Positions 1 through 48,484 of a DNA stretch of 64,000 nt are shown one piece after another. A program made the translations under genes and the position numbers. The DNA is from Polytrichum commune (taxonomy: Eukaryota > Streptophyta > Polytrichopsida > Polytrichales > Polytrichaceae): positions 49,347,169-49,411,168 of the forward strand of contig OX485806.1 in NCBI GenBank assembly GCA_950295325.1. Reading direction: 5' to 3'. Position 1 is the first letter of the stretch, and every line of letters begins with the position of its first letter. Under the pieces are notes generated by a model. That model had not been told where the DNA came from and searched no databases. It was given only the letters and a program-made list of their open reading frames with translations.

Positions 1-693
1 GCCGAAGGGGTTGGACCTAACAAAAAATGGTATGCTACCGGCGTGGAGCACGAGCCTTCTAAGGTAGGGGGCTAGCCTATCGACCAAAAATGTGTCTTGC
101 CTATCGCCGGTCCAAGTGTCCGGGAAGATGACGTTGCCCGGGGGGTTCAAGACGCTCTTGGTGGGGTTGTCGTCGATGAAGACGGTGTTATCTGGAGTCG
201 GCCACCACCCGTGCGGCGTCCCTTGCAGACGGGGGACGCCTCGCCAGAGTCTCGAGCGGAGGACCTTGAGGAACTGTTGTCCTCCGCCCCGACCGCCAAA
301 CTTGGGCACCGGTTGACCTTTCTCGTCGAGCAGCTCGTCGCAGTCCTCTTGGCCGAGGACGAGGCAAGGGCTCGGGAGATCGTGGAACAAGAAGTGCATG
401 ATGGGCTCGGTGTTCTCCATGACCATGGAGCTCCACACAATGACGTGAGCGAACTCGGCCACCTCGCGAAGGAAGTCACGCAAGCCGGGACGGGCGCGGA
501 CAGCCTTGCGGTTAATGAGGGTGTCGAGCTCGCCGTCGTAGTCCCTTTGGTCGGGGTGACGAAAGGGACGCGTGGGGATCCTTGGGATGTGTTGGGTGTG
601 ACACAACACCCCGTTGAGGTCAAAAACGATGAAAGGTTTGTTCCGGGTGGGAGGTCCACTGGTCGAGGGGTTGCGACCAATCTCCAGGGGGTC
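1..693 (-). CDS. FCP1/NLI-interacting-factor-like HAD phosphatase, partial exon
   Basis: Read on the minus strand from 693 to the window edge, one open frame gives about 230 residues of an FCP1 homology (HAD-type) phosphatase. These enzymes dephosphorylate serine/threonine, classically the RNA polymerase II C-terminal tail. Visible landmarks in order are the nucleophile strand FDLNGVLCHT, a middle segment VIVWSSMVMENTEP, GQEDCDELLDEKG, and the distal acidic strand VFIDDNPTKSVLNP. The usual DxDxT/V motif reads DLNGV, so the second (general acid) aspartate is asparagine, which argues for reduced or altered catalysis. The exon opens just after a good acceptor (TCATCACAG, minus strand) at 694, so at least one upstream exon exists. 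It lies downstream of, and in the same orientation as, the ParB/methyltransferase-like gene. It could be a captured host fragment or another gene of the same element. Fold confidence is fair; function is inferred. Confidence 0.7.
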
Positions 694-769
694 CTGTGAT
701 GAACAACTCGACTAGTTTAATTCTATGATCCAATAATGAAATTTTGCGTAGAAAATGAAGACGGTGCAT

Positions 770-1290
770 TATGGGGAAAGACGAGGAACTGAGGAGAGTG
801 CAAGGAAAATGTGCTCAAGGGCACACTTGCGAACGAGCGTTCGTGAATGAAGGCTACCGGGGCGGTGCGCATCATTTACGAGCGCTCGTTCGTGAGCGCG
901 GCTACACGTACATTTACGAGCGGTCGTTCGCGAATGAGGTGGACAGTGGGTCGCAGCCTTTCACGAACGAGCGTTCGCGAATGAGGTGGGTATGCAAGAA
1001 TCAACATAATCTCATCAACATATACAACATACGAGAAGGGGTCGAGGGCAGAGAATTTGAAGCAACGCGATGCAGATAACATAGGCTCATATATTAATCC
1101 CTTGAATATTTACATTTCTCACGTGATAGTCTATCACATTTTCCTAAGGCAAAATGATGCTGTGTCCTACAAAATTGTTCGGCCCTAAGGGGGACCGCTG
1201 AAGAGGGCTCTCGCAAGGCCACTGGATGTCGATGAAGAGAAAAACATCGCGATGTTAGAGAGGTTACGAACGCGCGTTCGTAAAAAAATG
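770..1290. repeat. Palindrome cluster between phosphatase exon and large gene
   Basis: This spacer holds five copies of the dispersed palindrome (near 829, 874, 911, 961 and 1264), several imperfect (GAGCG or GCGA in place of GAACG or GTAA). No convincing ORF is present. It is either the 3' UTR and flank of the large gene or intron/5' sequence of the phosphatase gene. A degenerate relative of about 980-1390 occurs at 17340-17830. Confidence 0.7.
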
Positions 1291-1296
1291 GTATTC

Positions 1297-2745
1297 TCAG
1301 AGGAGAGTTACCTCGTCATCGGGGGGAGGGGCAGCGGCGGTGGACCGAGCAGCAGGTCCCTCCTCAACGATTAATGAACGCGCGTTCGTAACCTCCATAG
1401 CTACAGCCGCCTCTGTCTCCATGGCCTCTGCCTCACGCTCCGGTTGAGAGGCCTGTGTCGCCTGGATGCGCAGCGCGTCTTCTTCCTCGGCGCCTAGGTC
1501 GAGCGCGTCCATCCTGACATCCTCCATCCACGCCGCATGGGTTTCTTCCACGTCCATCCCATGCACCCCTGGTGCGTCATTGGGGCTCCCCTGCGTGTCC
1601 TCCACAATGACCATGTCAGTGTGTCGCGCAGAGTCATCGCCATGTCTGTCTACTACCCTGGGGACGACGGTGAAAGACAACGCATCGGTGTATGAGGGCA
1701 GTCCTACCCTTGAAGGGGGAGGGGTGAGGACTGGAGGACCTGAAGATTCACGAACGCGCGTTCGTAAAACCTCGTCCTCCTGGATGGCCGCCGCCACAGC
1801 ATCGTGGGAGGTGGTTGAGGGAACCTCTGGTGGCGGAGGAGTGCCAACAAGCGTAGGGTGGGGCGCCTGTTGGCGGGAAGGCCCTCCGGTGAACATGCCC
1901 GGTGGAGGGGATTGGGAGGGGTATCCTCCAGGGAAGGGGTAGGCCGGCTGGGGGGGCACCGAGAAGCTCTGCATACGCTGGAGCATGGCGAGGATGGCGT
2001 CCGTCTTCTCGTTCAACTGCCTCAGCTCCTCCTGAATTGCGAACATTTTCTTGGCATTCTCCTCTGCCGCCTTCGCCATGTCCTCCTTCATATTTTGCTC
2101 GAGCTTGGCGTTAAGCTCGGCGACGGACAATGCCTCCTCTTTGACCCTCTTGTTTTTGTCAAAGTCTACCCCCAGCTCGACCATGATCTCCATGTCGCCC
2201 TCGTCCTCATCGGAGACCTCGATGATTGCCCCCGGAGGCAGCTCCACGTAGGGGGTCTTCTTCATCCTCCGCCTCGTGTTGCGGTACTGGTCCAACGTCG
2301 GTCGGGACCGTTGGTCCAGAAGGTCGAGGTTCTCCATCTTGGGAACCACGATCGGCCTGGGCGACACGGATGTCGAGCATCCCCCGGGAGTGCCGAATGC
2401 CTCCGCTCTAGACGTTCTCGCGGGGAGGACATCTTGGGTTGTCCCCGCCGACGACCCCGTGTATCCACCCGGAGTCCCTTGCACGTCGGATGGATTTCCC
2501 GATAGCGCCAAAATGCGGAGAGGAGTGACGTCCAAGGATCGGAGGATCGCCTCGACGTTGTAGGAGGGCGCGGGCTCGTCGTCGTCCGTCTCCATGGCGG
2601 GCATGCCTTCGTCGACGGGCATGTTGATGTCTGTGCTCGGGAGGGACATGTCCTCCAGGTCCATCGTGGAGGCCTTCGCCCTGTGCACGTGGAAGTCCTC
2701 CTCGTCGATGGCTTCAATGAAGCTGTTGACGACCAGCCCCAGCAT
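1297..2745 (-). CDS. Exon 3 of large gene: acidic coiled-coil C-terminal tail
   Basis: About 482 codons ending at a stop at 1297-1299. It begins MLGLVVNSFIEAIDEEDF, completing the methyltransferase-like domain. A low-complexity acidic/proline/threonine region follows, then a charged helix (KEEALSVAELNAKLEQNMKE ... IQEELRQLNEKTDAIL) at about residues 1070-1130 of the whole protein that should form a coiled coil, then a Pro/Gly-rich stretch (PYPFPGGYPSQSPPPGMF). Two copies of the dispersed palindrome lie inside the coding frame (1371-1391 encoding VTNARS; 1749-1768 encoding RTRVR) without breaking it. No recognised domain in the tail. Confidence 0.68.
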   Translation of the reverse strand: MLGLVVNSFIEAIDEEDFHVHRAKASTMDLEDMSLPSTDINMPVDEGMPAMETDDDEPAPSYNVEAILRSLDVTPLRILALSGNPSDVQGTPGGYTGSSAGTTQDVLPARTSRAEAFGTPGGCSTSVSPRPIVVPKMENLDLLDQRSRPTLDQYRNTRRRMKKTPYVELPPGAIIEVSDEDEGDMEIMVELGVDFDKNKRVKEEALSVAELNAKLEQNMKEDMAKAAEENAKKMFAIQEELRQLNEKTDAILAMLQRMQSFSVPPQPAYPFPGGYPSQSPPPGMFTGGPSRQQAPHPTLVGTPPPPEVPSTTSHDAVAAAIQEDEVLRTRVRESSGPPVLTPPPSRVGLPSYTDALSFTVVPRVVDRHGDDSARHTDMVIVEDTQGSPNDAPGVHGMDVEETHAAWMEDVRMDALDLGAEEEDALRIQATQASQPEREAEAMETEAAVAMEVTNARSLIVEEGPAARSTAAAPPPDDEVTLL

Positions 2746-2886
2746 CTGAGATTCAAGCAAATACGTTAGAATATACGAACGTGCGTTCGTAAACATCAAC
2801 GACGAGAAACAATGTCATCAAAACCCAAGACAAATTGAGGTGAACTTTACGAACGAGCGTTCGTAAATATTAGTTGGAGAGCTTAC
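2746..2886 (-). other. Intron 2 of large gene with two palindromes
   Basis: A 141-bp GT-AG intron (GTAAGC ... CTCAG) holding palindromes at 2774-2793 and 2845-2866. Splicing joins ...YAAM to MLGLVVNSFIEAI in phase 0. Confidence 0.72.
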
Positions 2887-3048
2887 CATCGCAGCGTACA
2901 TGAACTTGCTGCCGCCACAAACGTTGTACAGGGTCTCTCCGCTTATTGCCACGCTCTGCAAAACGGAGACGTAGAACTCCAACCTGAGTTCCATCGTCGG
3001 GAAGACAGTGTACAAGGTCTCCTGCAGCAGATCCTTGGGAGGGGGATG
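2887..3048 (-). CDS. Exon 2 (3' part) of large gene, beyond the retrotransposon
   Basis: Continuation of exon 2 on the far side of the inserted chromovirus. It encodes PPPKDLLQETLYTVFPTM, then LRLEFYVSVLQSVAISGE and LYNVCGGSKFMYAAM. The GGSKF turn aligns with the D-C-T-x-A-T-G-S turn of the A and B genes, i.e. the SAM-binding motif I. It ends at a GTAAGC donor at 2886. In plus-strand shadow frames part of this reads into the LTR, which is not coding. Confidence 0.7.
3044..3048. other. Target-site duplication GGATG (left)
   Basis: Direct repeat GGATG immediately before the left LTR, matched by GGATG at 10104-10108 immediately after the right LTR. Confidence 0.92.
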
Positions 3049-4024
3049 TGTCGCGCACCTCTCCATGAGGAGTGCCCGAAACACCATGGGCACAAGGGGG
3101 ACCCCGGAGTGACACCCGGGACTTGTGGCGCCGTTGGTGAGAGGGCCCAAGTGATCCTAGTGTGGGTGAGGGCCCCGGGCGTTGGGAACGCCTCCCACCC
3201 ACAAAGACTAGGAGGCATGAGGGTGAGGCCATGAGCTATGCGTAGCTCATGGCGTGGTGATTCTAGAATGCTCAAGATCACCTCAATCGGAGGTGTGAGC
3301 TAGGAGTTATGGCCATTTGAGTGGGGTGCTGTCCCGGGACAGCGCCCTGGTACAGCAGTGCCTGGGAGTGATTCCCGGGACTGCCAAGGTTCAAACAGGC
3401 ATAACTTCCTCATGACTTGCCCGAATGGGGCAAGCGAGGAGTCCATCGGCATCTACGTGAAGCGTAGATGAGGATGGAGTGGTTGGTTGTTATGATCAGA
3501 TATCATACAAGGAAGTCATGATGGTCTGAAGCTGCTGGGGGGGTTCTAGGCCCAGCAGCTAAGGGAAAATGTCCACTTGGCCCCAACTCTTGGTAGAGAG
3601 ACAAGAGGTTGGTTGGCGGTGGGGTAGGGGCTCCGTGTAGAGTCATAGAGGCTTATATGGGTGAGGTGGTGTGGCCTCACCCACCCGAGGCCGAACGGCA
3701 AGGCCTCCATGGGCTTTGGCCTATTGTGAGGCCATAGTTGCCTAGTATGCTTCGGGTTGTTGTAGTGTTGCTCCGGCAACGCGATGATCAACATAGGATT
3801 GGACTTCCATGGATGGAAGTCCACATTGGGGAAATGGGTTACCGATTAAGGGGTGAGTCCCGAAAGCAAAGTAGGAGGGTTGGTTCCCTCCTATGAACTA
3901 TTGGTCCGGGGTTAGAGGAGCTAACCATTAGCATGGCGGTATGCGAAGGGTTAGCCACTCGTAACCTTTGCTAGAATTGAAAATTGGCAAGATGGTCAAG
4001 GGGGGGCTAGCAAGGGTTGCGACA
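3049..4024 (+). repeat. 5' LTR of chromovirus
   Basis: 976 bp, TG...CA bounded. It contains a perfect 16-bp hairpin GCTGTCCCGGGACAGC near 3329 and a near-palindrome around ACTTCCATGGATGGAAGT near 3800. A TATA-like CTTATATGGG lies near 3653, a candidate promoter for the element transcript. Confidence 0.93.
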
Positions 4025-4026
4025 CT

Positions 4027-4038
4027 TGGTATCAGAGC
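4027..4038 (+). other. Primer-binding site, initiator tRNA-Met
   Basis: TGGTATCAGAGC two bases after the 5' LTR is the standard plant LTR-retrotransposon complement of the 3' end of initiator methionine tRNA. Confidence 0.93.
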
Positions 4039-4321
4039 AGGGTTCCAATATTTAAGCTAGCACTTTGAGGGAAACATGGCTATCAAACCTGAGGGTTATT
4101 ATGGTGAGCCCGGGGTTTCCAAAAGGTTGTGAGGCTCAAATTGGAACAAAGATCATGTGTAAATGGAATTTGACCATACCATTAGTTCTAACGACAATGG
4201 TGGGCATGATGGTAGATTGAGTAAGGAAAATGGAGGAGTGCTTTGAAAAGGGCTCCCGCAAACCTCAACAAACATTTGGGGCCTAGAATACCAAAAGCAC
4301 CCAAAACCTTGGAGGGTATTA

Positions 4322-5120
4322 ATGTTGGATTGGAATTTCAATTCGAGATGCTTTGAAGGTTCGGATGTTGAAATGAACTTGATGCTAATGAGGCACCCGG
4401 GGCCTCTTAAGGCCTATGTGCGCTATTCAAACGCACAAATGAAGGATACACCTAAAACGGACGAGCTTTTTAAGAAATGCATCGTTTTAGGTGGGGTTTT
4501 AAAAGCGGGTGGTGGATGCCTTGTTTAAGTCCCTAAGGCTTCTTGAGGACATGGTGGGGACCATCAAGTTTGCAAGAGCATTGAAGCCGATGGTCCCAAA
4601 GAGAAGTTGGCGGCGCATCACCACAAGTGGCTTTAGCCAAAGTAGGTCCCAAAGAAATGAGTGCAAATTGTTTGGTCCATTTTACTTAGGCAAAACATAT
4701 TGGTGCCGCAGACGGAATGTTGAAAGGTGGCTTTATGCTTCCAAAGCAAATCATACTTGTGCCGCGGACGGAATGTTGGGAGGTGGGTTTGTCCTACCAA
4801 GGCAATTCATGTTTGTGCCATGGACGGAGTGTGAGAAGGTGGCTTTGTGCTACCAAGGCAAAACATGTTTGTTTTGCGGACAAATTATGAGAAATTGGTT
4901 TTGTGGCACCAAACCAATTTGTCCCGCGGACGAAATGTTTAAAGTTGGCTTTGCGGACCAAGCCAAGCCAAGTTGCCGAGGACCAAATGTTGGACGATGG
5001 CTTTGTGGCCAAGGCTAGTAGCCTTAAGCCGAGGCCAAGTATTTTGTACCTTGAGGCTCAAATGAATGGGAGAAATGTCTCATGTGTTGACAAAGAGGCT
5101 ATTACTCCTTCTTGAGCCCA
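4322..5120 (+). pseudogene. Degenerate gag region with internal tandem repeat
   Basis: Broken frames with no intact capsid motif. Between about 4690 and 5010, five to six imperfect 50-60-bp repeats each contain a GCGGACGGAATGTT-like core (4706, about 4766, 4820, 4877, 4928, 4978), encoding a repeated C-A-D-E/G-M-F peptide. The position just after the PBS identifies it as the gag part. Confidence 0.6.
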
Positions 5121-5142
5121 AAACTCACAAGGGAGTTGGGGC

Positions 5143-5640
5143 TTGCCGATTGATAGAGAAAGCAAGCCCACCAAGGTGCGGTTTGGAAAGGGCGAACCGC
5201 ATGAGACAAAGGAGGCCGCGATGCATGTAACCTTTCAATGTGGGACATTGGATTTTTGTCAAAATTTCACACCATGTGAAATAGATGAAATGCATGTCAT
5301 TGTGAAGGCCGCCTACGTTGAAACTCACATGATAGATGTGAGGTGCAAGCCGGTGAGCTTGCGGTGCATTATGATGGGTCATAATGGCAAAGAATTGAGG
5401 TTCAAATTGACAAGGACTCCTATGTTAGGAGGACCCAAGTTGAATTTGGTCTTAATGGACCAAATGAAAAATAGAAAACATAATGGTCGTGGTTCAATTG
5501 GAGCAACTCCAAGGAATGTATGGGGAGGCTAGGAAAGATGGGCCTCCTCCAAACCACATTGGTGGGATGTTGGTGAGATACAAGGATGTATTCACCAATG
5601 TGTTGCCCAAAAAAATTACCGCCAAGAAGTGAAAAATAAC
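5143..5640 (+). pseudogene. Retropepsin-like protease and linker remnant
   Basis: Frames encode VTFQCGTLDFCQNFTPCEID, KPVSLRCIMMGHNGKELRFK and RTPMLGGPKLNLVLMDQM, which resemble the segment following the retropepsin active site in plant chromovirus polyproteins. The catalytic D-T/S-G is not visible. It runs into YKDVFTNVLPKK, after which the reverse-transcriptase palm is absent. Confidence 0.5.
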
Positions 5641-5689
5641 TTTGCTCAACGAGAGATTGAGTTCTTCAGGTATGTGGTGACAAAGGAAG

Positions 5690-6850
5690 TTGGTGGACGA
5701 ACATGAAGAATGTCAAGGCAATCCAAAAAGAGAATTGGCCCTTGACTCAAGAAAATGGCTTAGGTCATTTGTTGGCCTAGCCAACTACTACCACCACTTC
5801 ATTCATGGTTTTGCTAAGGTTGCTAGAACCTTAGTCAACATGTTGGAAAAAAATGGCTATCCCCAAGAGTGGGATGAGCCTTGTCACCAAGCCTTTGGGG
5901 AGCTCAAGAGTAAGTTCTCTTCACAAGATGTGGTTAAGTTTCCGGGTTTTCATGAGCATGTTGAGGTGCACATGAAGGCGAAGGACTTTACCATTGGCGG
6001 ATGTTGATCCAAGATGGATGACCATTGCTTATGGGAGCATTAAGCTCCATGGTTGTAGAAGCTTATCGAACTTGTGCAAGAAATGGCTATCCCAAGAGTG
6101 GGATGAGCCTTGCCACCAAGTCTTTGAGGAGCTTAAGACCAAGTTCCTCTTTACCACCCGTGTTCAAGTTCGCGGAGCTTGAAAAACCTTTTGAGGTGCA
6201 TACGGGGGGTGAGTGACTTTACCATTGGCGGCTGTTGATGCAAGATGGATGGCCATTGCATATGAGAGCATGAAGCTCGATGGTTCGACTTGTGAAAGAA
6301 ATGGCTATCCCAAGAGTGGGATGATGTTTGTCACGAGTCTTTGGGGAGCTTAAGACCAAGTTCTCTTCGCCGCCCGTGCTCAAGTTCGCGGAGCTTGACA
6401 AACCTTTTGAGGGGTGCATACGGGGGTGAATGACTTTGCCAATGATGGATTGTTAATGTAAGATGGATGGCCATTGCATATGCGAGCATGAAGCTCGATG
6501 GTTGTCAAAGAAGACAACCAACTCATGACAAAGAATTTCTTTGCCGTAGTGCATTGCTTGAAGATGTGGCGACACTAGTTGGGGTCGCACAAAGTAAAGG
6601 TCTACATGGACAATGTGTCCTAAAAGTATTTTGACATACAAGCGCAAGTGACCGCCAAGTCATTGCGTTGGCATGATAGCTTGGCACTTATGAAGGTGGA
6701 TCTAATCCACAAACCGGACCGTGGAAATGTGGTGCCGGATGCGCGAAGTAGACCAGAAGAGTTCCAAGCAATGAGAACCATCCAAAACTTGTGGCTAATG
6801 TGTGCGGCGAAGGAAACTTGTGATGCAAGATACGGGAGGGGTAAATTAAT
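5690..6850 (+). pseudogene. RNase H remnant with tandem triplication
   Basis: RSFVGLANYYHHFIHGFAKV and HQAFGELKSKFSSQDVVKFP are the conserved tether leading into the Ty3/gypsy RNase H. The following block (GYPQEWDEPCHQAFEELK ... ESMKLDG) occurs three times in tandem (about 5850-6060, 6078-6290, 6297-6500; units of 205-220 bp) with different stops in each. RWHDSLALMKVDLIHKPDRG downstream closes the RNase H/connection region. None of the copies is open. Confidence 0.75.
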
Positions 6851-6899
6851 TACCCCAAAGCACAAAAGCTTTTAGGTGAGCTTCGCAAGAGCAAGGTGC

Positions 6900-8313
6900 T
6901 CAAAGAGGTTTAGTTGGTGGACGGATTGTTCAAGTGCAAACAAAGTCGGGTATTGGTGCCACAAGGCAAGTTGAGGCTATCGGTTTTGAAGGAAAAATGT
7001 GATAGCCCTATTGCCGGCCATAGAGGAGAAAGAAAAAAAAACCGCCATAGAATGGTGTCATGGAGGTACCATTGGCGGTGCATAAAGGAAGATATAGCCC
7101 ACTTTGTGAAGGCTTGAATCAAGGTTCAAATGAACCGAGCCTCTTACCAAAAGCAAGGCGGTTTCTTGCAACCGTTGCCTATCCCGTCGGCGCCATGGCA
7201 TAGTATGTGCATGGACTTGATCACAACTTTGCCGGAGTCACATGGGTATGATGCCATCTTGTTGATGGTAGAGCGGTTTGTCAAGTTGGCACACATGGTG
7301 CTGATTGTGGGAGCCACCACCGCGTTGAAGACCGCATAGCCTTTTCTCAAAGGATGGTTGAGGCACCACGGGTTGCCAAGAGTGATTGTGTGGGATCAAG
7401 ATCCAAAGTTCACAAGTGCATTTTCAATGCATTTCTCTAAGGAGGTCGGAAGGAAACTAAGGTTTAGCACGGCCTTGCATTCCTAAATGGATGGGAAACG
7501 GAGCGTGTGAATGGAGTCTTGAAGCAATACTTGAGGAACTTGGTGGGGGCGGACCAAGGAGATTGGGCGGACTATGTGGGTCGAGCGGAGTGTAATTGCA
7601 ATGTAGCCACGCACTTGGCTACCAAGGGGTGGTCTTTCGTGGTGGCTTATGGAGTGGATGCGCTCCAACCTATTAACCTAGCTCTCGAGGGGGCACATTC
7701 AACACTAGAGTTCAACCAAGATGGTGAGGACTTGGCCAAGAATGTAAACAAGTCTTGGAGATGACCAAGTTGTTGGTGGAGAAAGCCCGAATGTGCTACG
7801 AAGTGCAAGTCAATGCCGGAAGACGCGAAGTGGAGAATGAGGTGGGCCAAAATATGTTGTTGAATGTGAAAAACTTCACTTAGCCGGAAGGCCTCACTCC
7901 AAAGGTCATGTCCAAAATTGGAGCTTCATTTCCCATTGTGGAACAAGTGTTCAAGGACATGTATAAGTTGGAATTACCGCCCGAGATCAAAGTGCATCCA
8001 ACATTTCATGTCTCATTCCTAAAGCCATTTCAGGACGACACCTTGTGGCCCAATTACAAGCAAGTGATTAGGCCACCTCCCGACCTTGTGGATGTCATTT
8101 GGAACATGAGGTAGGAGGGCATCATCAAGTGTAGGAAGCCCAAGTGAAAAAGAAAGAAAATGAACAAAGGAGTACTTGGTGAAATGGTGAGGATACCATG
8201 AGAAAGAAGCCGTTTGGGTAGCGGCAAGAGACATGATGAACGGCAAGGAATTGGTAAAGCACTTTGAAGAAATTAAGGCTAGACATTTCAATAAAATGAA
8301 GCGTAGGCATTGA
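6900..8313 (+). pseudogene. Integrase core and C-terminal chromodomain remnant
   Basis: Pieces of a Ty3/gypsy integrase in several frames: SMCMDLITTLPESHGYDAI (first catalytic Asp), RVIVWDQDPKFTSAF (second Asp) and ERVNGVLKQYLRNLVG (glutamate helix). These are followed by YKLELPPEIKVHPTFHVSFL and then a chromodomain reading EYLVKW-(stop)-GYHEKEAVWVAARDM near 8170-8240. The chromodomain places the element among chromoviruses, which target modified chromatin. Multiple stops and frameshifts; ends at TGA 8311-8313. Confidence 0.8.
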
Positions 8314-9112
8314 TGAGGACATCAATCTCCTTTAGTGGGGGAGAGACGCTAGTAGCACACTTAGCTTCGAGGCTAATTGCTCCACAACATTAACTTGTTC
8401 TTTGGCTTGAGGGAATAAAGTCCAAACTTTAGTGGTGCAAAGAGAAAAGTATGAGATGAGGTCCTAGTCTTGTACTTGTGCTTGGTTAATGGAAGAGGGG
8501 AAATAGATATGCCAAACTAGGTTGGGTAAGCCGAGTAATTGGGGGCCATGGCTTCGAGGGGCCTTGGATAAAACCAAGAAACTTCTTAGTTGTGGGCTTG
8601 TCCGGGCGGGGACAAGGTGATGGCGCGTGCTCATAAAAGTGCTACCCGCGAGCTAACGAGAGTTGGCGCATGGGAGTCATGAACCCATGTCTCGAAAGAG
8701 CAAAGTGGGAACCGAGTCGGGCGGGACTTGGCATCACCCCCGTGCGATCGAGGCGTGGCTTAACAATGGAAAGCCATCTCGGAGTTGCAACCGAGACAAC
8801 TTAGTGGAAGCGTTGAGGTCTCGCCTAGATGTGTCACGTTAGGCTAGTGGAGCCTAATGGGGGAGGCCCCAAAGGAGGGGCAACCCAAGTGAGTCCCAAA
8901 GTAGGTGGGTCTAGTGTAGGTTAGGTCCTTGGAGGAGAGATCCAAGGTCGCTAACAGACCACCTAGGAACGACACCTTTGGGACTATGCCAAATTTGAAG
9001 ATGCATTGTGGGGGTCGCGCCCTAAGGTAAACACAATGCCGCACCATAGAGGATGGCAACTTGAGAATTGGTGTGCCGACTACGAGTATAGTCGATGAGG
9101 GCATCGACTCCG
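8314..9112 (+). other. Untranslated tail of the chromovirus, with duplicated polypurine tract
   Basis: No coding frame of note. A polypurine-like TTTAGTGGGGGAGAG at about 8331 is preceded by GATGAGGACATCAATCTCC, and nearly the same arrangement (GATGAGGGCATCGACTCC then TTTGGTGGGGGTGAG) recurs right before the 3' LTR at about 9095-9127. The intervening 780 bp looks like an addition between an old and a current polypurine tract. Confidence 0.5.
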
Positions 9113-9127
9113 TTTGGTGGGGGTGAG
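9113..9127 (+). other. Polypurine tract
   Basis: TTTGGTGGGGGTGAG immediately precedes the 3' LTR, the expected plus-strand primer position. Confidence 0.8.
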
Positions 9128-10103
9128 TGTCGCGCACCTCTCCATGAGGAGTGCCCGAAACACCATGGGCACAAGGGGGACCCCGGAGTGACACCCGGGA
9201 CTTGTGGCGCCGTTGGTGAGAGGGCCCAAGTGATCCTAGTGTGGGTGAGGGCCCCGGGCGTTGGGAACGCCTCCCACCCACAAAGACTAGGAGGCATGAG
9301 GGTGAGGCCATGAGCTATGCGTAGCTCATGGCGTGGTGATTCTAGAATGCTCAAGATCACCTCAATCGGAGGTGTGAGCTAGGAGTTATGGCCATTTGAG
9401 TGGGGTGCTGTCCCGGGACAGCGCCCTGGTACAGCAGTGCCTGGGAGTGATTCCCGGGACTGCCAAGGTTCAAACAGGCATAACTTCCTCATGACTTGCC
9501 CGAATGGGGCAAGCGAGGAGTCCATCGGCATCTACGTGAAGCGTAGATGAGGATGGAGTGGTTGGTTGTTATGATCAGATATCATACAAGGAAGTCATGA
9601 TGGTCTGAAGCTGCTGGGGGGGTTCTAGGCCCAGCAGCTAAGGGAAAATGTCCACTTGGCCCCAACTCTTGGTAGAGAGACAAGAGGTTGGTTGGCGGTG
9701 GGGTAGGGGCTCCGTGTAGAGTCATAGAGGCTTATATGGGTGAGGTGGTGTGGCCTCACCCACCCGAGGCCGAACGGCAAGGCCTCCATGGGCTTTGGCC
9801 TATTGTGAGGCCATAGTTGCCTAGTATGCTTCGGGTTGTTGTAGTGTTGCTCCGGCAACGCGATGATCAACATAGGATTGGACTTCCATTGATGGAAGTC
9901 CACATTGGGGAAATGGGTTACCGATTAAGGGGTGAGTCCCGAAAGCAAAGTAGGAGGGTTGGTTCCCTCCTATGAACTATTGGTCCGGGGTTAGAGGAGC
10001 TAACCATTAGCATGGCGGTATGCGAAGGGTTAGCCACTCGTAACCTTTGCTAGAATTGAAAATTGGCAAGATGGTCAAGGGGGGGCTAGCAAGGGTTGCG
10101 ACA
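9128..10103 (+). repeat. 3' LTR of chromovirus
   Basis: 976 bp, the same length as the 5' LTR and identical apart from one substitution near 9889; followed directly by the target duplication GGATG at 10104-10108. Confidence 0.93.
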
Positions 10104-11272
10104 GGATGGGGGATGCTGTAGATCTTCTTGAACGTAGTGTTCGCCTTGACAGGGGCTCGCCCATTCCGAAGCGCGTTGTACGTCAAGAAGACGAGGCTGA
10201 CCGCCCCCACCTATTTGTTTCCCGTGGCCTCGTTGATGGTCACGATCCCTTCCGTCTTGGCGGGCACGTAAGTGCTGTGGAAGATGCTGTACTCGAATTT
10301 GATCATCTTCTCGTACAGGTCGACTACAGCAGAGAGCTTTTCCTGCTCCACTATCCACAGCCAAACGTGAGGCTCCCTCATGTCCGGAGACTTGTGCTCC
10401 TTGAACTTGGCCATGAAGGGGTCGTAGAAAGGTATGTCCTTCCCCCCCTGCCTCGACGCACCGGGAATCCCCCTGAAATCGATCAGGGCAAATGGGCACC
10501 CCCGTCGATCCTCCCTCACCTCGGCCCTGCTCATGGTCCGGTCCCACTTGGAAAATGTCACCCTCTCCACTCCGGTTGTCACCAAACAAAATCTGGCCAC
10601 TCCTTCGAATGTGGCCAACCTCTTCCGCGCCAAAAAGCTTCTGTATTGCTCCACCTCCTGGGGATCCGTCTCGGTTTTCTTTGTCCTCTTGTTCCCCTTC
10701 TGCTTCAAAATGGAGGCGTGCTCCTTGACAAGACAACGCATTGAGGGTCCGGAGATGTTGTAGTCGACCTTGAACATCTTCCAGCTGGCCCAATTAATGT
10801 CCCCGTCGGCTAGGATGAGTGCGTACTCTGGTATTAGGGTGCTCAACTCCCTCATTGCAGCAGTCTTCAGCTTGCGGTGTTCGCACCATTCTTTGATGGA
10901 ATACGTGTCGGGCTTGTGTCTTGGCCTCTTCAAAAATATCTTCGGGTATGGGATGGTTCTTCCCACTGTGTTCCCAAGAAGATGCACCGCGCACCTCTGC
11001 AACTCGGACTCTGTTAACCCTTGAAGGGACCTGAAGAACTCCCTCAGTAGTGGAGGGGCCTCCCCGGTCTTCTCCGCGCTGTACTTCTCCTCGGTGTCGG
11101 GGTTGACCAGATCGCCCGAGCTGTGCGCATCAAAAAATTGTGTCCACAACTCCCAAGTGTCCATGTTGCAACAGATGAGGCGGAGCTCACCCTTGAGCTC
11201 CAGGACAAACTTGGTTGTTGTAGACTTCATGTCGATGGAGGAGAACTTGTCCACCATCGCGTCGCAGAATGC
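10104..11272 (-). CDS. Exon 2 (5' part) of large gene, up to the retrotransposon
   Basis: About 388 codons opening AFCDAMVDKFSSIDM. It includes a basic linker KQKGNKRTKKTETDPQE, and then GCPFALIDFRGIPGASRQGG, which sits where the permuted methyltransferase motif IV strand and loop should be, followed by HVWLWIVEQEKLSAVVDLYEK, a plausible next strand and helix. A TAG at 10211-10213 interrupts ...NEATGNK / VGAVSLVFLTYNALRNG, and the same frame continues to the insertion at 10104-10108. The frame then resumes across the element at 3048 (SIPHPPPKDLLQETLY) when one copy of the target duplication is dropped, which shows the element landed in an exon. Confidence 0.72.
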
Positions 11273-11393
11273 CTGCAGCAAGAAAGACATCAGTAACGCA
11301 CAAAATACGAACGCACGTTCGTAAATTTGAATGTCAAAGAACTTGAAATTTTGAATGTCAAAGATATTTACGAACGTTCGTTCGTAAACTCAC
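11273..11393 (-). other. Intron 1 of large gene with two palindromes
   Basis: A 121-bp GT-AG intron (donor GTGAGT, acceptor TTGCTGCAG). Palindromes at 11306-11325 and 11367-11388 fill about one third of it. Removing it joins ...QWK to AFCDAMVDKF in frame, and the A/B genes have a structurally comparable junction. Confidence 0.75.
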
Positions 11394-12688
11394 CTTCCAT
11401 TGTGGAGACGGCGTCTTCGTGTTCTCCCTTTCTTTAGGGGGGCACCCGTGGGCGACCCAGACGTCCCTTGCAGCCACTATGTTGGCTGCCCACGACGCCT
11501 CGAAGGCCTTGATCTTGTTGCCAGAGTTGAGGAAGGTGGATATCTTCCGCAGTTTGTCCCAATCGTCCGACCACACCAAGAACGCCTTCCAGTAGCGCAA
11601 GTCCTCCTTCAGCTCATGCTGGAAGTTGTCGTCCTTGAGAATTATCTGGGACGCCTTTAAGCTGTGTTGGCCATCTATGATCCAGAACTCTCCATTCTGG
11701 ATCCGTGGCCAGTCCTTCTCCGTCGGACGGGATGTCAGCCCTTTCGGCATGACGCAGACGGTATGCCTGTCCCACTTGACGTTGTTCATTAGATTATTTA
11801 TCTGCCACTTCACACCACCGCTTTCGCGAGAGCGAACCACCCATTTGTTGGGGGACATCTCGCACTTGAAACAGTCCACGTTGAATGTGAAGTGGCGTCC
11901 CATGGGCCAGCAATCCTTCGAGTAGTTGTTGAAGTCTCGAAGGATCCTCATGGCCTTCACAGCGTCAGGGTTCTCACCCTTTTTCAAGGGGGTGGGCATT
12001 ACGACAGGCAAGGTCACCTCTGCGGTCTCCGTTACTCCCGATTTCTCCATCTCCTCCTTTGTCCTCTTCGATGGCGTGGAGTGTCTACTGGGGCCCTCCG
12101 TCGCCCTGCTAGCGGAAGGCACAGGCCTGGGTGCACTTCTAGATCTACTGCCCCTGATGTGGATGGTTTCTTGGGGCTCGTCTTCTTCTTGTTTGCCTCA
12201 GTGACCACACTGTTGTATTTGGAGATGTTCAATGCAAGGGCGGTCAATTTCCTTGCCGTCCAGTATGGGCTCAACGCATATTTGGAGAAGAGGCCGTCCA
12301 GGTCGAAGTGTTTGGCATCTTCCGCTACGTTATTGGTGGCGTATTGGTAGGAGAAGGTATTTTTCTGAAAATGCAACAAGAGGTTGATATGATCCTTCTT
12401 GTTCTTCATGTCCAGAATTACATACTCCCCCTGGGCCTCTATGGACTCTATCTCCCACGTCTTCATTTGAACCCACTGTTCGGGCTGGTCCGGTCTTGTC
12501 TCCAGCTCGTAGGTGAAGCGCATGCAGAAGAGGTCGTCCCCGATCTTCTCTGGCAGTGCCGTCCACTCCCCCATGAAGTCTTCCTTGGGGACATAGTTGT
12601 CGTTGCCGTTATCGTCTAACACCGACTCTGGGAGGCCATCGACCTTCACCGCGAACATCTCAATGGCACTTCTGCTTGATCTTGCCAT
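11394..12688 (-). CDS. Exon 1 of large gene: ParB/DGQHR-like domain
   Basis: About 431 codons on the minus strand. The first half (MARSSRSAIEMF..., with DFMGEWTALPEK and FTYELETRP) runs to a C4 run at 12151-12154, after which coding continues in another frame (PSASRATEGPSRHSTPSKRTKEE...). A single missing base there explains the shift; it may be a true deletion or an assembly error. The second half carries PMGRHFTFNVDCFKCEMSP and WIIDGQHSLKAS followed by FLNSGNKIKAFEASW, the arrangement seen in ParB/DGQHR-superfamily proteins, where the DG(Q/N)H(R) strand-helix turn lines the nucleotide or DNA pocket. The exon ends ...SPQWK before GTGAGT at 11393, phase 0. Confidence 0.72.
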
Positions 12689-12699
12689 CTGCAATAGAA

Positions 12700-13410
12700 T
12701 ATAAACAATTAGTGACTTTACGAACGAACGTTCGTAAGTGACATGCATATCCCACAGACTACGCAGTGTTAATGCGTTTTTGCAATTGATGTAATTATAT
12801 TTACGAACGTTCGTTCGTAAATGAGGGGTTGCAAGATCATATAAATTTTTAGTATTGAGTTTACGAACGAGCGTTCGTAAATGAGGGGTTGCAAGATCAT
12901 ATAAATTTTTAGTATTGAGTTTACGAACGAGCGTTCGTAAAAGATATGAAGATCAAAGAGACTACTCGTCATGAATGTGTTTGTAATATATTTGGTTATT
13001 TTTACGAACGATCGTTCGTAAAAGATATGGGTTTTATAGATTTGGATTCATTTACGAACGTGCGTTCGTAAGTATGTCCATTTGGTCTATCTTTTCGGAC
13101 ATTTGGTTGATTTATCTTTCGTAAGTACATGTGATTTGTCTTATTGGTGTTCGCAAAATTATATTTGTTCTTTAGATATTCATAGAGGTTCATATTAAAG
13201 TTAAGGTTCCTTCTGAGTGATATTTTGAGTATATTTACGAACGTGCGTTCGTAAATATAGATCATTTCAAAGAACGTGGAGTGCGTATTTACGAACGCAC
13301 GTTCGTAAATGGAGGTTCGGTATGCAGTGTATGTCCATTTACGAACGAGCGTTCGTAAATGGAGGTGGGTATGCAGTGTATGTCCATTTACGAACGAGCG
13401 TTCATAAATG
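12700..13410. repeat. Palindrome array upstream of the large gene
   Basis: Ten copies of the 22-bp palindrome (TTTACGAACG, 2-bp centre, CGTTCGTAAA) at 12717, 12800, 12860, 12920, 13001, 13051, 13234, 13288, 13338 and 13387. Two are embedded in a direct 60-bp duplication (12821-12940) and two more in a 49-bp duplication (13310-13408). The DNA between is AT-rich and non-coding. This is the 5' side of the large gene, probably promoter, leader or 5' intron. Confidence 0.88.
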
Positions 13411-13860
13411 TGATGGTTTTGGGATCCCCTGTCCGTACATATATGTATTCGTATATATACGTATATGTATATAACTCACTTATTAGCTACTCTGCTTGCA
13501 GCCGTGCCTGCAAAATTTTGGTCAGAATGATGCAAATCTTCAATCATAAAGCAATTGAGATGCATAATGAGATGCAGAATGAAACATGAAGAAGAAAGTG
13601 ATAATTCACATTGCATGTAACAAAAGAAATTGAATTCAAGAAGCAACATTTTCAGAATGTAAGAGGAGTTGGAAAGGATAACAAATTACATTGAAATGTT
13701 GCACACTTCAAACCCTGCTTCTTCTCTCTCTGAAAATCCCAGAAATCCTCACAACTGCACACTCAATTGCCTTTCAAATGCACACTCAGATTACTCTCTA
13801 ATGTAGACCTCAAGCCTTCACAGCTTATATACAAACCCTAGTATACTCCGATGTACACAA
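13410..13860. other. AT-rich gap, no gene seen
   Basis: Contains a short TATATACGTATATGTATAT-type stretch near 13440-13470 and no supportable ORF. Confidence 0.4.
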
Positions 13861-13869
13861 AACTCACAA

Positions 13870-14180
13870 CCTTGTAGCTCTCAAGCTTCTGAACTCTTAA
13901 GCAAACCCTTAACTCTCAAGCTTCCCTAAACTCTCAAGCTTCACTTCCGAAGCTTCCCTAAACTCTCAAGCTTCAACTCCGAAGCTTCCTTAAACTCTTA
14001 AGCTTCTAAAGATCACCCTCAAGCTCTCAATCCGAAACTTTGAAGCTTTCCTACTCAAGCTCTCAAGCTTTTGAAACTCACAAACTCTCACACTGAAAGC
14101 TTTCACAAACTCACAAGCTTTCACAATGAAAGCTTTCACAAACTCAAAAGCTTTCACACAAGCTTTCAATCTGAAATCTC
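13870..14180. repeat. AAGCTT-rich imperfect tandem repeat
   Basis: About 14 AAGCTT hexamers in roughly 310 bp. They sit in imperfect 20-30-bp units, first of type CTCTCAAGCTTCC and later of type GAAAGCTTTCACAAACTC. Low-complexity; no coding evidence. Confidence 0.8.
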
Positions 14181-14374
14181 TCAAAACTTGCAACAAAACT
14201 AATTTAAAACTTCAAGACTAAAAAAAGCAAGAGCTTCGCTCTCTAAGCGCTCCGCTCCTCCTCTCCTCGAAATGACAAATGAGGAGAAGAGGAAGGGGCG
14301 CGGGGAGGTAGGTACGCTGCTAGGGTTTCCCAGCACCTGCCACGTGGCACAACTCCACTGGCTAGGGCTGGGAG

Positions 14375-14455
14375 GGAGATGGGATGGGATGGTATGGGAG
14401 GTGATGGGAAGGGATGGGATGGGATGGGATGGGATGGGAGATGGGAGATGGTTGT
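14375..14455 (+). repeat. (GGGAT)n microsatellite
   Basis: A run of GGGAT/TGGGA pentamers with a few GGAGAT variants. Confidence 0.9.
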
Positions 14456-15004
14456 ATATTGGAACCCTTCATGTTATTCTCATGCTTTGACATATTTATA
14501 TGTAATGGACGCGTTTAGGGCATTAACTTGAAAAGCTTAGTTCAAATACATGAATTTTACTCGTTTTATTTCCTTAGTAACTCTACATTTGGATTCCTTG
14601 TAAACATATTTTAGGAAAATATGCTCAGTTAATTCGTAATAAACAATGCATGTCATTTCCTAGGTTGTCAATGTAGAATCCACCCCCAAAGATATGTATA
14701 TGGTGTTTTAAAATATAGTTTATGTAAGAGCTAGATATCTTTCAATTAATTCGATGGTTCCTCAAATAAATATTACATGCAAAAAAGAATTCATAATAAT
14801 ATGAGATTGCGTAGAGTTGCTATACGATAGGATGTCAATTCAAGTTCCAATATTAGGTGTTAGCTTGAACTAATGCATTTCTGGAGTGGTCAACTATTTT
14901 GCTAGCATCAACTACGAGCTTGCGATGAATGAAGTTAGTGCAATTACAAGGGTTTTTGAGGAGTCAATATTATTTGTGTGTGTAATGTATCCTAGTAACA
15001 ATCT

Positions 15005-15092
15005 AAAACCTAAACCCAAATACCACATACACAACTTTCACAAACCCTAAACCCCTAAACCCTACCCCCAAACCCTAACCCTAAACCCTACA
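15005..15092 (-). repeat. Interstitial plant-telomere-like tract
   Basis: Degenerate CCCTAAA units (AAACCCTAAACCCCTAAACC and AACCCTAACCCTAAACCC) match the Arabidopsis-type telomere heptamer on the complementary strand. The tract is short and imperfect, so an internal relic and not a chromosome end. Confidence 0.75.
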
Positions 15093-16069
15093 TCCCTGTA
15101 TCTTTTTATCTTACCAACCTTTCTTATATGTGGCCATGTTGTTTTCTGAGGGCAGGTCAAATTGGTCTACCAATGTTGGTTGGATGGAGAATGCTTAATT
15201 CCGTTCATAACAACTATAATAATTGATAATGATGCCAATTGTCATTTTCACATTCCAAATTAATAGATTTGAGATAAAACTTTGGTTTAGGTGATAAGTG
15301 AAATTTCAAATATTCTCACTTTCACCTTAATAGTTCTGAGTGAAATTTCATCACACAATCCACGATCTTATTATAATAACATGCATGTCTTAAGACTTCA
15401 ATTTATATCAACACTTTAAGCTATGATGATGCACATCTTTCTCATAGGATGCAAAACATATATTAATTGTAAGTACATACTATTGTATGCACCATTCCAA
15501 ATTAATAGTGCATTTCCCCAAACCCTAAAAGTCTATTTCCAATAGGACCTCAACTCATTTAATCATGTGTCAACTTAAACTAACAATCGAACAATGCATT
15601 CAACTATAAATATCACCAATGATCTAATAAACATTTAACCAATGTGTATCCGTACCCTTACAACAAGTGGACGAAAATTCAATTTCCAATAGGACGTCAT
15701 ACACATAATAATTGTAACTATGATTCAACGATACGGTAGCTAGTATGGTTTCAAGTCTCAATGATCATTACGCTATCATACTATGCAGCATTACAAATTG
15801 ATTAATCCTTCCTACTCATGCCATTTTAATTCCTTATTTTCACATCTAGATACCATTTGAAAGAAGACCTAACTTACATATATTATTAGGTATAATTAGT
15901 TCATAGTGTCCTCAATCTACCCTAGTGCAAGCCATTATGGATTAACCCGATTTTTTAATTGTATTTATGCACTTGGTGACCATATTACGGTCATTTTTTC
16001 ATGTGAAACATATGATACCTATAATTTTAGGGGCGTCCGCAACATGTTTCTTAGCCACTCTGACCTCAT

Positions 16070-16073
16070 TGTG

Positions 16074-16116
<43 letters not shown>
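16070..16116 (+). repeat. (GT)n(AT)n microsatellite
   Basis: GT repeat passing into an AT repeat; a second AT run lies at about 16234-16265. Confidence 0.9.
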
Positions 16117-16639
16117 CTATGACTTTGACATTCATAACTTTATTAGGCATCAATTGTCAATTAACTTGGACTTCATACCTTAGTCGCAAATCATTAAATA
16201 TTCAATGTTAACCATCTCCATATTTAGACATTATGTATATATATATATATATATGTATATACATATATTTCGATGAGACCTTGGTCACAACTAAGGTGTG
16301 CAACCGATTTATATATTTTCAATATGTTGGCGTGCATGCAAGGCATGTTCCATACATGACAGTGCTATTTATATAATTCCGCATGGATGGAATGGGAGAT
16401 TGTTAGGTCAAAGAAGGCGGCGGGAATCCGCTTTTTAAAGAGCATCCAAGGGATTTTGAACCAGCGGGGTGAAGTACTTAAAGCTCTTCCCCCCACAACA
16501 AAGCTCTTTTCAGCGGCACATGCAAGTGTGCGCTCTACAGACCTCACCGAACGCGCTAAAGCCATTTCGTGTGCGCCAACCCTACACCACCCAGGTACAG
16601 TACAGGCTGTACCTACCGCATATACCGCCGTAAATACCG

Positions 16640-17450
16640 GAACTTTACGAACGCACGTTCGTAAAGATGAAGAGCTTCAGGTTTAGACAAACGATTCGGA
16701 CCTGGACATGGCAAGGATTTACGAACGCGCGTTCGTAAATTCCACATGAGAGCATGTTCTGGATTGAGCTACTCATATGGATAGTCACATGCACGTAATC
16801 CATCTCAGTTATTTACGAACGTGCATTCGTAAATATGCCTTCGAGGATCATACATACATATTTGACCCGTATCTATTGGTACCTGATGGTCGGTAATTTT
16901 ACGAACGTGCGTTCGTAAATCCCACAGGAGATCATGTTTTGGATTGAGCTACTCATGGATAGTCACATGCACATCATCCATGGCATTTATTTACGAACGT
17001 GCGTTGATAAATATGCCTTCGAGGTTCATACATACATATTTGACCCTTGTCTATTGGTATCTGATGGTCGGTAATTTACGAACGTGCGTTCGTAAATCCC
17101 ACATGAGAGCATGTTCTGGATTGAGGTACTCATATGGTTAGTCACATGCACTTAATCCATGACAGTCATTTATGAACGTGCGTTCGTAAATATGCCTTCG
17201 AGGATCATACATACTTATTTGACCCGTATCTATTGGTACCTGATGGTCGGGAATTTACGAACGTTCGTTCGTAAATACATGTCATTATTGTCTACGCATC
17301 CAGCAACACATCTTCATTCATGCACATCAGTATGGCAGTAATTTACGAACACAGAATAGCAAGAAAAATATGCTCATCGCTCGTCCGTGAAGGATGTGAA
17401 GGATGTGAACACGGGGTCGCACCCATTTACGAACGTCCGTTCGTAAATGG
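16640..17450. repeat. Tandem repeat of ~178 bp, two palindromes per unit
   Basis: Three units (about 16718-16897, 16898-17074, 17075-17253) plus a partial one. Each carries the 22-bp palindrome twice, giving sites at 16718, 16812, 16898, 16990, 17075, 17169 and 17254 with alternating spacing of about 93 and 85 bp. Further copies lie at 16644 and 17426. Three copies have one or two substitutions in an arm. No coding potential beyond reading through the repeat. Confidence 0.88.
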
Positions 17451-17830
17451 GTAGGTACGCAAAAGTCAACATAATCAAATTCACAATATGGAGGTGCTCA
17501 GTGTTCAAAATATTGTTGGAGTTGATTCAGGCATCATCTGCAGATTTACTAATTTTGTACGTATGGACAAGTGTTCTCTTGTGAGAGTATATCGCGCAGG
17601 TTCCTAAGTCAACATGGTACTTTGACCTACAAAACCGATATTCCTCAGGGTGCTCTCATTTGAGGGATCTCGAAGGCCGCCGGATGTACATGGAGAAGTT
17701 ACTGAGGTCACGTACGCGCGTTCGTAAATGCATGTGGCGTTCTCGAATTTCTGATCTCGTCGTCGGTTGTATGGAGACATGCGCTGGTCCGAACAGCAGG
17801 GCCCTCCTGGACGACTAACGAGTGTTCTCC
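17340..17830 (-). pseudogene. Degenerate relic of the large gene's 3' end and flank
   Basis: Stretches here match 980-1390 in the same order and orientation: GGTACGCAAAAGTCAACATA against GGTATGCAAGAATCAACATA; TTCCTAAGTCAACATGGTAC against TTCCTAAGGCAAAATGATGC; and a block CGAACAGCAGGGCCCTCCTG against CGAGCAGCAGGTCCCTCCTC. A palindrome at 17708-17728 sits where 1264 does. It is therefore a second, decayed copy of the terminal exon and 3' flank, implying that the left gene belongs to a repeated family. Confidence 0.65.
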
Positions 17831-17996
17831 TCTTTGTCCATGTATTGTTTACATTAGTGAACAACCTAGACGTATGCTTAAAACATTTTTTTGGGACGCG
17901 CGTTCATCTTTGTGCGTGAGGTTCTCCAATGGTGCACCAAAATTTGTTTGTCAATTTTGGGCCATTTATCTCCACATATATTTTATCCTCTCTTGT

Positions 17997-20900: not shown

Positions 20901-21180
20901 ATATTGTCGTCCAAGCACTAAAGACCACAACGTGCTCCGCACTTATTTAGGTTGGGACACCAAAAAGAATTTTAAGTGGACAGTGGACTCAGCGTACACA
21001 CCGGTTTGGATAAACACGGATACTATACTTTGTGCTTGGAAGCCGCGCAAAGGTTCCAACACAGAAGCAATGACCATCCCCCAAAAACATATAGATTTTG
21101 CCAAAGACAACTTGGCACGTATTGCAGCTGCGGAAAATGACGCCGAGAATGGATATGAAGCGGAAGATGGAGTTGGGTAA
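17997..21180 (+). CDS. DUF7869-type putative transposase (two exons, one nonsense codon)
   Basis: Exon 1 runs to 19527 (donor GTTTGT) and exon 2 spans 19661-21180 (acceptor TTTTTTCCAG); the junction reads VTG / MIAHGHGDVKYAHYGLDFYP in frame. The C-terminal half has the signature of the family: LHVQLDNCTKDNKCRYVFCF, SLLVAKGIFKEVFVSF and MVGHTHDDIDASFGRWSMKL. The paired Asp in LDNCTKDN and the GHTHDDID block look like RNase H-fold transposase carboxylates; that reading is inference. A CxxC pair (ARCTTCEKYKG) and CPCYARKIK suggest zinc binding. One in-frame TGA (18912-18914) interrupts ...ADFYRF / KYSSLG; CGA to TGA would be the simplest origin. The start is uncertain (17997 or 18051). Length about 1,010-1,018 residues. 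The gene lies next to, but is distinct from, element A. Confidence 0.75.
19528..19660 (+). other. Intron of DUF7869-type gene
   Basis: A 133-bp GT-AG intron with a T-rich tract ending TTTTTTCCAG; both flanking frames rejoin in phase 1. Confidence 0.75.
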
Positions 21181-21590
21181 ACATAACATAGGTGAAAGTT
21201 AACGGCGGGAAAAAACATTAGTGCTTAGTAGTCTTGGTTTTTAATAGACTTAGTAGACTTGTCACACTCCATTGTGGTATACGTTTGGGATGTGCCATCC
21301 AAAACCATAAGAACCTTACTTATAGGATGCGCACCCCAAACTCTATAATGACATAAACCATTTGTTTTTTAGATTCGCTTGTTATTTTCCACATGGAGTT
21401 CACGTTTTCATTATAATTGCAATTTTCTATTTTTAGTATTAGGAATATTCTTTACGTGCGAATTTTTAAATTGTCATGTTCTTGATGTTCCCAACATTCC
21501 ATATGCCCACAATATTGGCATCCCAAACTATGGGCATATTTTATTTTGAGACTTTCAAAAGTCTCCGATTAACGAATATAGTGTTATTTG
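21181..21590. other. 3' flank of DUF7869 gene up to a truncation breakpoint
   Basis: AT-rich, no gene. Similarity of the next (minus-strand) transposase gene to its sister copy stops at about 21575-21593, marking the left breakpoint of element A. Confidence 0.5.
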
Positions 21591-47743: not shown

Positions 47744-47849
47744 CTGCTCAGTTTACAAACACACCCAGAAATTAGTACATCTACATCTATTGGTCCATTT
47801 TTTGGCAATCAGGAACGAGTCCCACTACCCAAGTAGCTAATACACCTAA

Positions 47850-48470
47850 TACCCCTCCCAGTAGCTATCTCGGCACGGAGACACCCAAATGAAGTTCAAT
47901 CTAACTGCCTCACATATGATTCAGACCCCTACATTCTAACTTACAAACATGCAAACTAAGCTTAATCAGACCATTTCTAACCATTTCAGACCACCTAAGA
48001 CCCCTAATTTATAACTCACAAACCTGCAAACTAAGCTTAATATGACAATTTCTAACCACCTAATACCCCTCCTAGTAGCTATCTCGGCACGGAGACACCC
48101 AAATGAAGTTCAATCTAACTGCCTCACATATGATTTAGACCCCTAATCTCTAACTCATAAACATGCAAACTAAGCTTAATATGACCAGTTCAGACCATTT
48201 CAGACCACCTAAGACCCCTAATTCATAACTCACAAACCTGCAAACTAAGCTTAATATCACCATCCCTAACCACCTAATACCCCTCCCAGTAGCTATGACG
48301 GCACCGAGACACCCAAATGAATTTCATTCTAACTGCCTCACATTTGATTCAGACCCCTACTTTCTAACTTACAAACCTGCAAACTAAGCTTAATCAGACC
48401 ATTTCTAACCACCTAATACCCCTCACCTAATAACTCATTTTACTACTTGAATTTCTGTATGGCTATTATG
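47850..48470. repeat. Intron 9 of copy B: palindrome-bearing minisatellite
   Basis: Three units of about 210 bp with the order ACCTAATACCCCTCCCAGTA / GCTATCTCGGCACGGAGACA / CCCAAATGAAGTTCAATCTA / ACATGCAAACTAAGCTTAAT; inverted-repeat cores near 47868, 48078 and 48292. It is the reverse-strand counterpart of copy A intron 9. Confidence 0.88.
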
Positions 48471-48484
48471 AACCATATCCCAAC

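Follow-up and report, generated by a model that had tools for sequence, protein, structure and literature searches.

The window analysed here is a 64-kb stretch of the Polytrichum commune genome (C4:49347169-49411168), and its left part is occupied by a DNA transposon in which a ParB/methyltransferase (MTase)-like gene is accompanied by many sites of a 22-bp palindrome. Comparison of copies and reading of their ends placed these sites in an element with terminal inverted repeats (TIRs) and target-site duplications (TSDs), whose ends read AACACTATATTCG...GGAGACTTTT and which is bordered by a 4-bp duplication, ATTT for the window copy. The cargo consists of a NIF-phosphatase-like open reading frame (ORF) and two genes: the ParB/MTase-like gene, which is on the minus strand, and a plus-strand gene for a DUF7869 protein, the sole candidate transposase found in the element by Pfam. 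The left TIR lies 1575 bp to the left of the window (L027:695), and the window copy spans about 23.2 kb including an insert. Its features are as follows.

1..711, minus strand: NIF (CTD-phosphatase-like) ORF that belongs to the element and continues past the left edge of the window into L027 (PF03031, E 8e-17).
826..1284, no strand: 3' array of five palindromes: 826, 875, 913 and 960, each at 3 mismatches, and 1263 (site scan).
1300..2745, minus strand: exon 3 of the ParB/MTase-like gene; by eye it is coiled-coil/Pro-rich, and its coding sequence holds palindromes 1371 and 1747.
2746..2886, minus strand: intron 2 (GT..AG), with palindromes 2772 and 2846.
2887..3048, minus strand: 3' part of exon 2, the end of the MTase-like fold, GETLYNVCGGSKFMYAAMV (translation).
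10104..11272, minus strand: 5' part of exon 2, a helical region and the MTase-like fold; the motif-IV place reads DFRGIPG, and there is one in-frame TAG.
11273..11393, minus strand: intron 1 (GT..AG), with palindromes 11304 and 11367.
11394..12688, minus strand: exon 1, an N-terminal domain (weakly PH/FERM-like in the model) and a ParB/Srx-fold domain that contains FWIIDGQHS; the frame is broken near 12190.
12717..13408, no strand: ten palindromes that form the 5' array of the ParB/MTase-like gene (site scan).
13500..16500, no strand: spacer between the two divergent genes, free of sites (site scan).
16644..17728, no strand: array of ten palindromes upstream of the DUF7869 gene, most of them within a tandem repeat of about 179 bp (16717-17276).
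17883..21180, plus strand: DUF7869 gene region, candidate transposase, with the domain in ORF 19558-21180 (PF25273, E 1.9e-40; conserved across copies).
21548..21585, minus strand: right TIR, AACACTATATTCG..GGAGACTTTTGAAAGTCTC (copy comparison and end reading).

A site was defined as two 10-bp arms around a free 2-bp centre, with at most 3 mismatches over the 20 arm positions. By this definition the 64 kb hold 31 sites, on which a script scan and a pattern search agreed, while none of 100 dinucleotide shuffles produced a single one. The sites are all confined to 826-17728, and the rest of the window has none. The initial annotation, counting by eye, had described about 30 copies of one palindrome: two in each intron, two in coding exon 3, about ten upstream of the gene and about ten in a tandem repeat. 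The scan bore out this number and this layout, the two exonic sites carrying 3 mismatches (1371) and 1 mismatch (1747), and the last group lying in and around the repeat. The description as a single palindrome was accurate for the 15 exact sites; the other 16 are only near matches, six of them at 3 mismatches (826, 875, 913, 960, 1371, 17707). The centre is indeed free, as ten different dinucleotides occur there among the 31 sites. When 25-nt flanks were compared, the sites fell into 17 unrelated flank groups. Thus, tandem duplication alone is not enough to explain them. Searches of Rfam gave nothing at gathering scores, and palindrome searches gave 0 matches in the viral_contigs collection and 2, taken as chance, in the prokaryote genome collection, both being collections from which near records may be left out.

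The arms were then compared with their surroundings by aligning the window element with other copies. Five copies were sought, and 94 of the 155 site-by-copy pairs aligned, all of them with copies A-D and none with a relative named E. Mismatches amounted to 47/1880 (2.5%) in arms, 9/188 in centres and 448/5634 (8.0%) in flanks, so that arms diverged about three times more slowly than flanks; tandem arrays may align out of register and add noise to this comparison, from which 61 of the 155 pairs are absent. In the most diverged copy (A) the difference was 12/200 (6.0%) against 172/600 (28.7%). Arm divergence was below flank divergence in 67 of the 94 pairs and above it in 17, the remainder being equal. 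CpG changes were counted at 8/722 in arms and 188/3142 at other CpGs. The earlier claim that arms stay intact while intervening DNA drifts is hence upheld.

Across the genome (408 Mb in 64 contigs), the window palindrome has 2909 exact copies, while a reversed control has 0 and a near-variant control, one base per arm off the window type, also has 0. Among the matches listed, 86 distinct exact sites fall in the first 2.54 Mb of contig C1: 59 in four clusters that each contain a gene copy, 26 in relative E and one in a small group (L016). Palindrome sites accompany each of the four gene matches scored in that same 2.54 Mb, and two arbitrary 9.9-kb stretches have none. An exon-1 piece gave at least 139 genome matches, 85-100% identical, scored from 1055 first-look candidates. 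Contig C1 itself begins with CCCTAAA repeats, the plant-type telomere repeat.

Relative E measures 9491 bp between its TIRs (L007:1071 to L031:660; C1:639070-648560, inside C1:638000-656900) and has the TSD CATA. It carries 43 palindrome sites in two expanded arrays, and tblastn found in it no match to the ParB/MTase-like or DUF7869 proteins. It retains an 84-aa NIF-like fragment (69% identity) and short stretches resembling the ends and spacer of the window element, and it holds two ORFs of 142 and 172 aa, the second of which passes through an array. Between the arrays of E and those of the window, similarity disappears at E 0.01 once the palindromes are masked. Because the sites have been kept and multiplied in E without the ParB-like and DUF7869 genes, they are predicted to act in cis via protein supplied by other copies.

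A second form of the palindrome was foreseen from gene calls that read through introns (P0026, P0028, P0031 and P0032), in which unusual peptides, VWVGRPKP and SLGRSTQT among them, give TTTGGGTCG-NN-CGACCCAAA on back-translation. It next turned up at L015, one of the loci already compared, whose ParB region is 39% identical to that of the window. Genes of the P0028 type are 39-43% identical to the window type in the ParB region and carry GTTTGGGTCG-NN-CGACCCAAAC in introns and flanks; this palindrome has 9231 genome copies (reversed control 0). We examined 30 gene loci. Each locus had one palindrome type: the window type at 17/17 window-type loci (212:0 sites) and the other at 13/13 P0028-type loci (0:171 sites). 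Of the 17, five (the window locus and A-D) entered the set through the original observation or through clusters of palindromes; the remaining 12, and 12 of the 13 P0028-type loci, were chosen by protein match alone, from 139 and 75 matches listed respectively. A de novo count of 2-bp-centred palindromes returned TACGAACG as the commonest half-site for the window type and TTGGGTCG for the P0028 type, and the two types share 5 of 10 half-site bases. A third homologue search, with P0028 as query, returned only P0026 and P0028 itself.

At locus T (L032+L033, C6:14052000-14068900) sites precede the gene and recur in intron 1, behind the MTase-like part (the expected place of intron 2) and in the 3' flank. 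A further array stands beside a DUF7869 fragment, a candidate member of the same element. The AACACTATATTCG ends of this locus are at 3406 and 13960, with that array and the DUF7869 fragment outside them.

The window copy of the ParB/MTase-like gene is broken, not only by the frame break near 12190 and the in-frame TAG but also by a retroelement with long terminal repeats (LTRs) in exon 2. Structure modelling and fold matches recovered the ParB/Srx fold, that of the ParB N-domain, and suggested an MTase-like fold, with no Foldseek match reaching E 0.001; the transcriptional repressor KorB is among the ParB-fold matches. Pfam and PHROGs searches on the homologues gave nothing above cut-offs, the best being a PHROG ParB-like profile at E 0.096. 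At motif IV, whose position was inferred from the structure model, DFRxxP replaces the catalytic DPP[WYF] in 18/18 homologues covering the region, and [DNS]PP[WYF] occurs in 0/32. The window gene reads DGQHS at the putative P-motif place, which we take to be that of the conserved arginine of the ParB NTP-binding P motif. No homologue with the region has this arginine (17/17), 16 reading DGQHS or DGQHT and P0014 reading GGQHS. The conserved P-motif arginine is reported to be needed for the ParB CTPase clamp (PMC12704722). As the motifs expected of a DNA methylase and of a canonical CTP clamp are both altered, we consider it more likely that the protein has a role in binding or chromatin than in modification.

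The TIR pair comes with a matching TSD in two of the three pairs examined, those of the window element and E. Membership in CACTA/EnSpm, which is defined by a CACTA terminus with a 3-bp TSD, was considered and rejected: CACTA is preceded by AA at 9/9 element ends (3 further one-mismatch matches were dropped as unrelated), the 3 bases adjoining CACTA mismatch in both two-ended elements, and the duplication is 4 bp outside AACACTA. When a Mutator-type transposase was considered for the element, Pfam returned DUF7869 only. Elsewhere, open frames stand at 61566-63927 (plus strand), where the window ORFs have no Pfam match, and at L027:1-700; these presumably resemble a Mutator-type transposase with a SWIM-like zinc motif.

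The other features of the window are the following.

3049..10103, no strand: degenerate LTR retrotransposon within exon 2, outside the palindrome system, with LTRs from 3049 and from 9128 and the TSD GGATG.
25856..31036 (listed also from 23427), no strand: family-2 element A, in which a gene with a ParB-like motif (26729-29604, plus strand) is flanked on each side by TGTCTCGG-NN-CCGA(G/C)ACA-like arrays.
47843..55758, no strand: family-2 element B, inverted; its ParB-like-motif gene (49652-52649, minus strand) is surrounded by unrelated repeat units that hold the same palindrome.

Copies of the LTR family lie at 3049-4024, 9128-10103, 41262-42234, 48477-49422 and 57958-58917, and stretches of it also occur in other transposon copies; a perfect hairpin, GCTGTCCCGGGACAGC, is found within the LTRs at 3328, 9407, 41537 and 58234.

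The second repeat family was located around 23.9-32.8 kb and 46.2-57.6 kb by self-comparison of the window, and no terminal repeats were found when its elements were compared. Its palindrome, TGTCTCGG-NN-CCGAGACA, is the third of this study, with 1310 exact genome copies (reversed control 0). At up to 3 mismatches there are 25 sites in the window and 0 in 20 first-order Markov simulations, and when the arrays of its two elements are matched locally against each other, the twelve best hits consist of the palindrome itself. The CDGNHR motif of the family-2 gene is invariant in 50 aligned sequences. Likeness of the protein to the ParB fold is limited to the motif DGNHRRQAW, with a model pLDDT of 58, no convincing fold match and an hhalign probability of 0.4%.

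Several known systems are comparable to this arrangement. In VANDAL elements, VANA is the transposase gene, the transposase is of the Mutator type, and an accessory protein binds the motif and clears silent marks. The VANC proteins of Arabidopsis VANDALs are described as binding a short motif whose tandem repeats occupy VANB21 and VANC21 introns and the region upstream of VANA21 (PMC5735166), and protein and motif are reported to evolve together (PMC5735166, PMC10398659). In layout the element described here strikingly resembles this system, having an element-encoded protein, arrays in the introns of the accessory gene and upstream of a second gene, growth by tandem repeats, and co-divergence of motif and protein. 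It differs in that the VANDAL21 motif, as given there, is the 9-bp YAGTATTAY in one orientation, whereas our site is a 22-bp dyad with a free 2-bp centre, and in its ParB and MTase-like folds, DUF7869, AACACTATATTCG ends and 4-bp TSDs. A ParB-MTase accessory protein is also described in Ectocarpus Sola1-1_Ec32 and, by the references of that paper, in green and red algal transposons, with self-binding proposed (PMC12477816). The likeness extends to ParB-like and MTase domains, the strand opposite to the transposase and a giant DNA transposon; in the sections available, that paper reports no binding site, whereas the candidate sites here vary with the protein, and the catalytic motif is altered. 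Some fungal DNA transposons carry a TET/JBP accessory gene thought to aid escape from silencing (PMC12730594); it encodes another type of enzyme, and the accessible text describes no site array. The ParB-like protein VirB is reported to relieve silencing in bacteria (PMC10770331, PMC10653881). Our protein shares the ParB fold with ParB-parS, Noc, KorB and VirB and differs in having S/T at the arginine position and in belonging to a eukaryotic nuclear transposon (PMC12704722 for the bacterial proteins). Among the papers listed by searches of an open-access library, none describes these palindromes as motifs of a transposon, and those listed for the four half-sites are unrelated.

Bacterial ParB-type proteins use inverted-repeat sites. 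Since the palindromes of P. commune sit in a TIR/TSD transposon, are conserved beyond their surroundings, are kept in E and switch with protein subtype, we predict with good confidence that they belong to the element's own protein. The initial annotation had named them cognate sites of the encoded protein, as a parS-like or modification-site array; the cognate-site part is favoured by these results, and a modification array is unlikely. The fuller account, in which the palindromes are cis recognition sites of the ParB/MTase-like protein within a VANC-like anti-silencing system, is probable on sequence evidence and analogy, while anti-silencing as the purpose of the array, which leans on the analogy, is offered tentatively. 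A protein dimer would bind each pair of 10-bp half-sites, and dense loading at both promoters, within the introns and along the 3' flank would exclude or remove silent chromatin, so that copies of the element stay expressed or mobile. This would be VANC-like, sequence-specific anti-silencing built from a different protein family.

Several observations weigh against this account. Model residues 384-440 and 639-659 are of low confidence, and no DNA-binding element is tied to the half-sites. The DUF7869 gene also travels with the array and may thus be the reader. In 17 of the 94 aligned pairs the arms are more diverged than the flanks. The 30 loci form just two groups, and hence independent switches are few. 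For the P0003/P0029 subtype, codon logic on the P0029 tail suggested a further palindrome (TTTACGACCG type); it has 0 genome matches, leaving that inference unconfirmed, and it is the near-variant control given above. The TIR pair of locus T has no matching TSD. The CpG ratio is 0.66-0.86 in array DNA against 0.45 in the site-free spacer; as a sign of protection this is only suggestive, because exons read 0.72-0.84 and the DUF7869 gene 0.88. Family-2 arrays, at 0.28-0.47, do not fit simple protection.

KorB- and TnpA-like proteins regulate transcription through operators, and the sites might be operators through which the ParB/MTase-like protein controls, as repressor or activator, both its own gene and the divergent DUF7869 gene, with no chromatin role. 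The gathering of sites upstream of both genes and in its own gene's introns would suit this, as would KorB among the structure matches. Yet E keeps its 43 sites with both genes undetectable, and the separate site groups exceed the need of operator control, which makes this explanation unlikely.

It is more doubtful still that the DUF7869 protein, as the element's transposase, binds the sites to assemble a transposition complex, in the manner of CACTA elements, which carry subterminal repeats bound by transposase. DUF7869 is the only candidate transposase and accompanies the array, and non-autonomous copies would need such sites; but the window element has no site (at up to 3 mismatches) within 3.8 kb of its right TIR or 2.3 kb of its left TIR, E has none within 0.8 kb of either, and sites occupy introns and exons of the other gene.

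Methylation of the palindromes by the protein itself has in its favour the MTase-like fold and the proposal published for algal ParB-MTase transposon proteins (PMC12477816), and is very improbable given that DFRxxP stands for DPP[WYF] in every homologue with the region. Transposons often borrow host motifs, but capture of host transcription factor sites unconnected to the encoded protein is equally improbable, as the palindrome varies with protein subtype inside one genome and the window type is missing from all 13 P0028-type loci.

Recognition by the element's own protein is the favoured reading. That the palindrome differs with protein version suggests that each transposon tags its own copies with a private address. 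We judge the finding real, out of the ordinary and testable: one genome offers two forms of the candidate site, each paired with its own form of the protein, which makes specificity directly testable by swaps. A phage-like ParB-methyltransferase protein with altered catalytic motifs could, we tentatively propose, have become a means of general self/non-self addressing in plant transposons, with a private dyad for each lineage, which has a free 2-bp centre and is seeded through promoters, introns, exons and flanks, and with protein and address changed together at least once within one genome. Because a neighbouring family with a ParB-like-motif gene has built the same kind of array, this design may be widespread. 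If the anti-silencing role is true, these moss elements might yield compact dimeric DNA binders for 22-bp targets in plants, and would represent a second, convergent invention of the VANC strategy.

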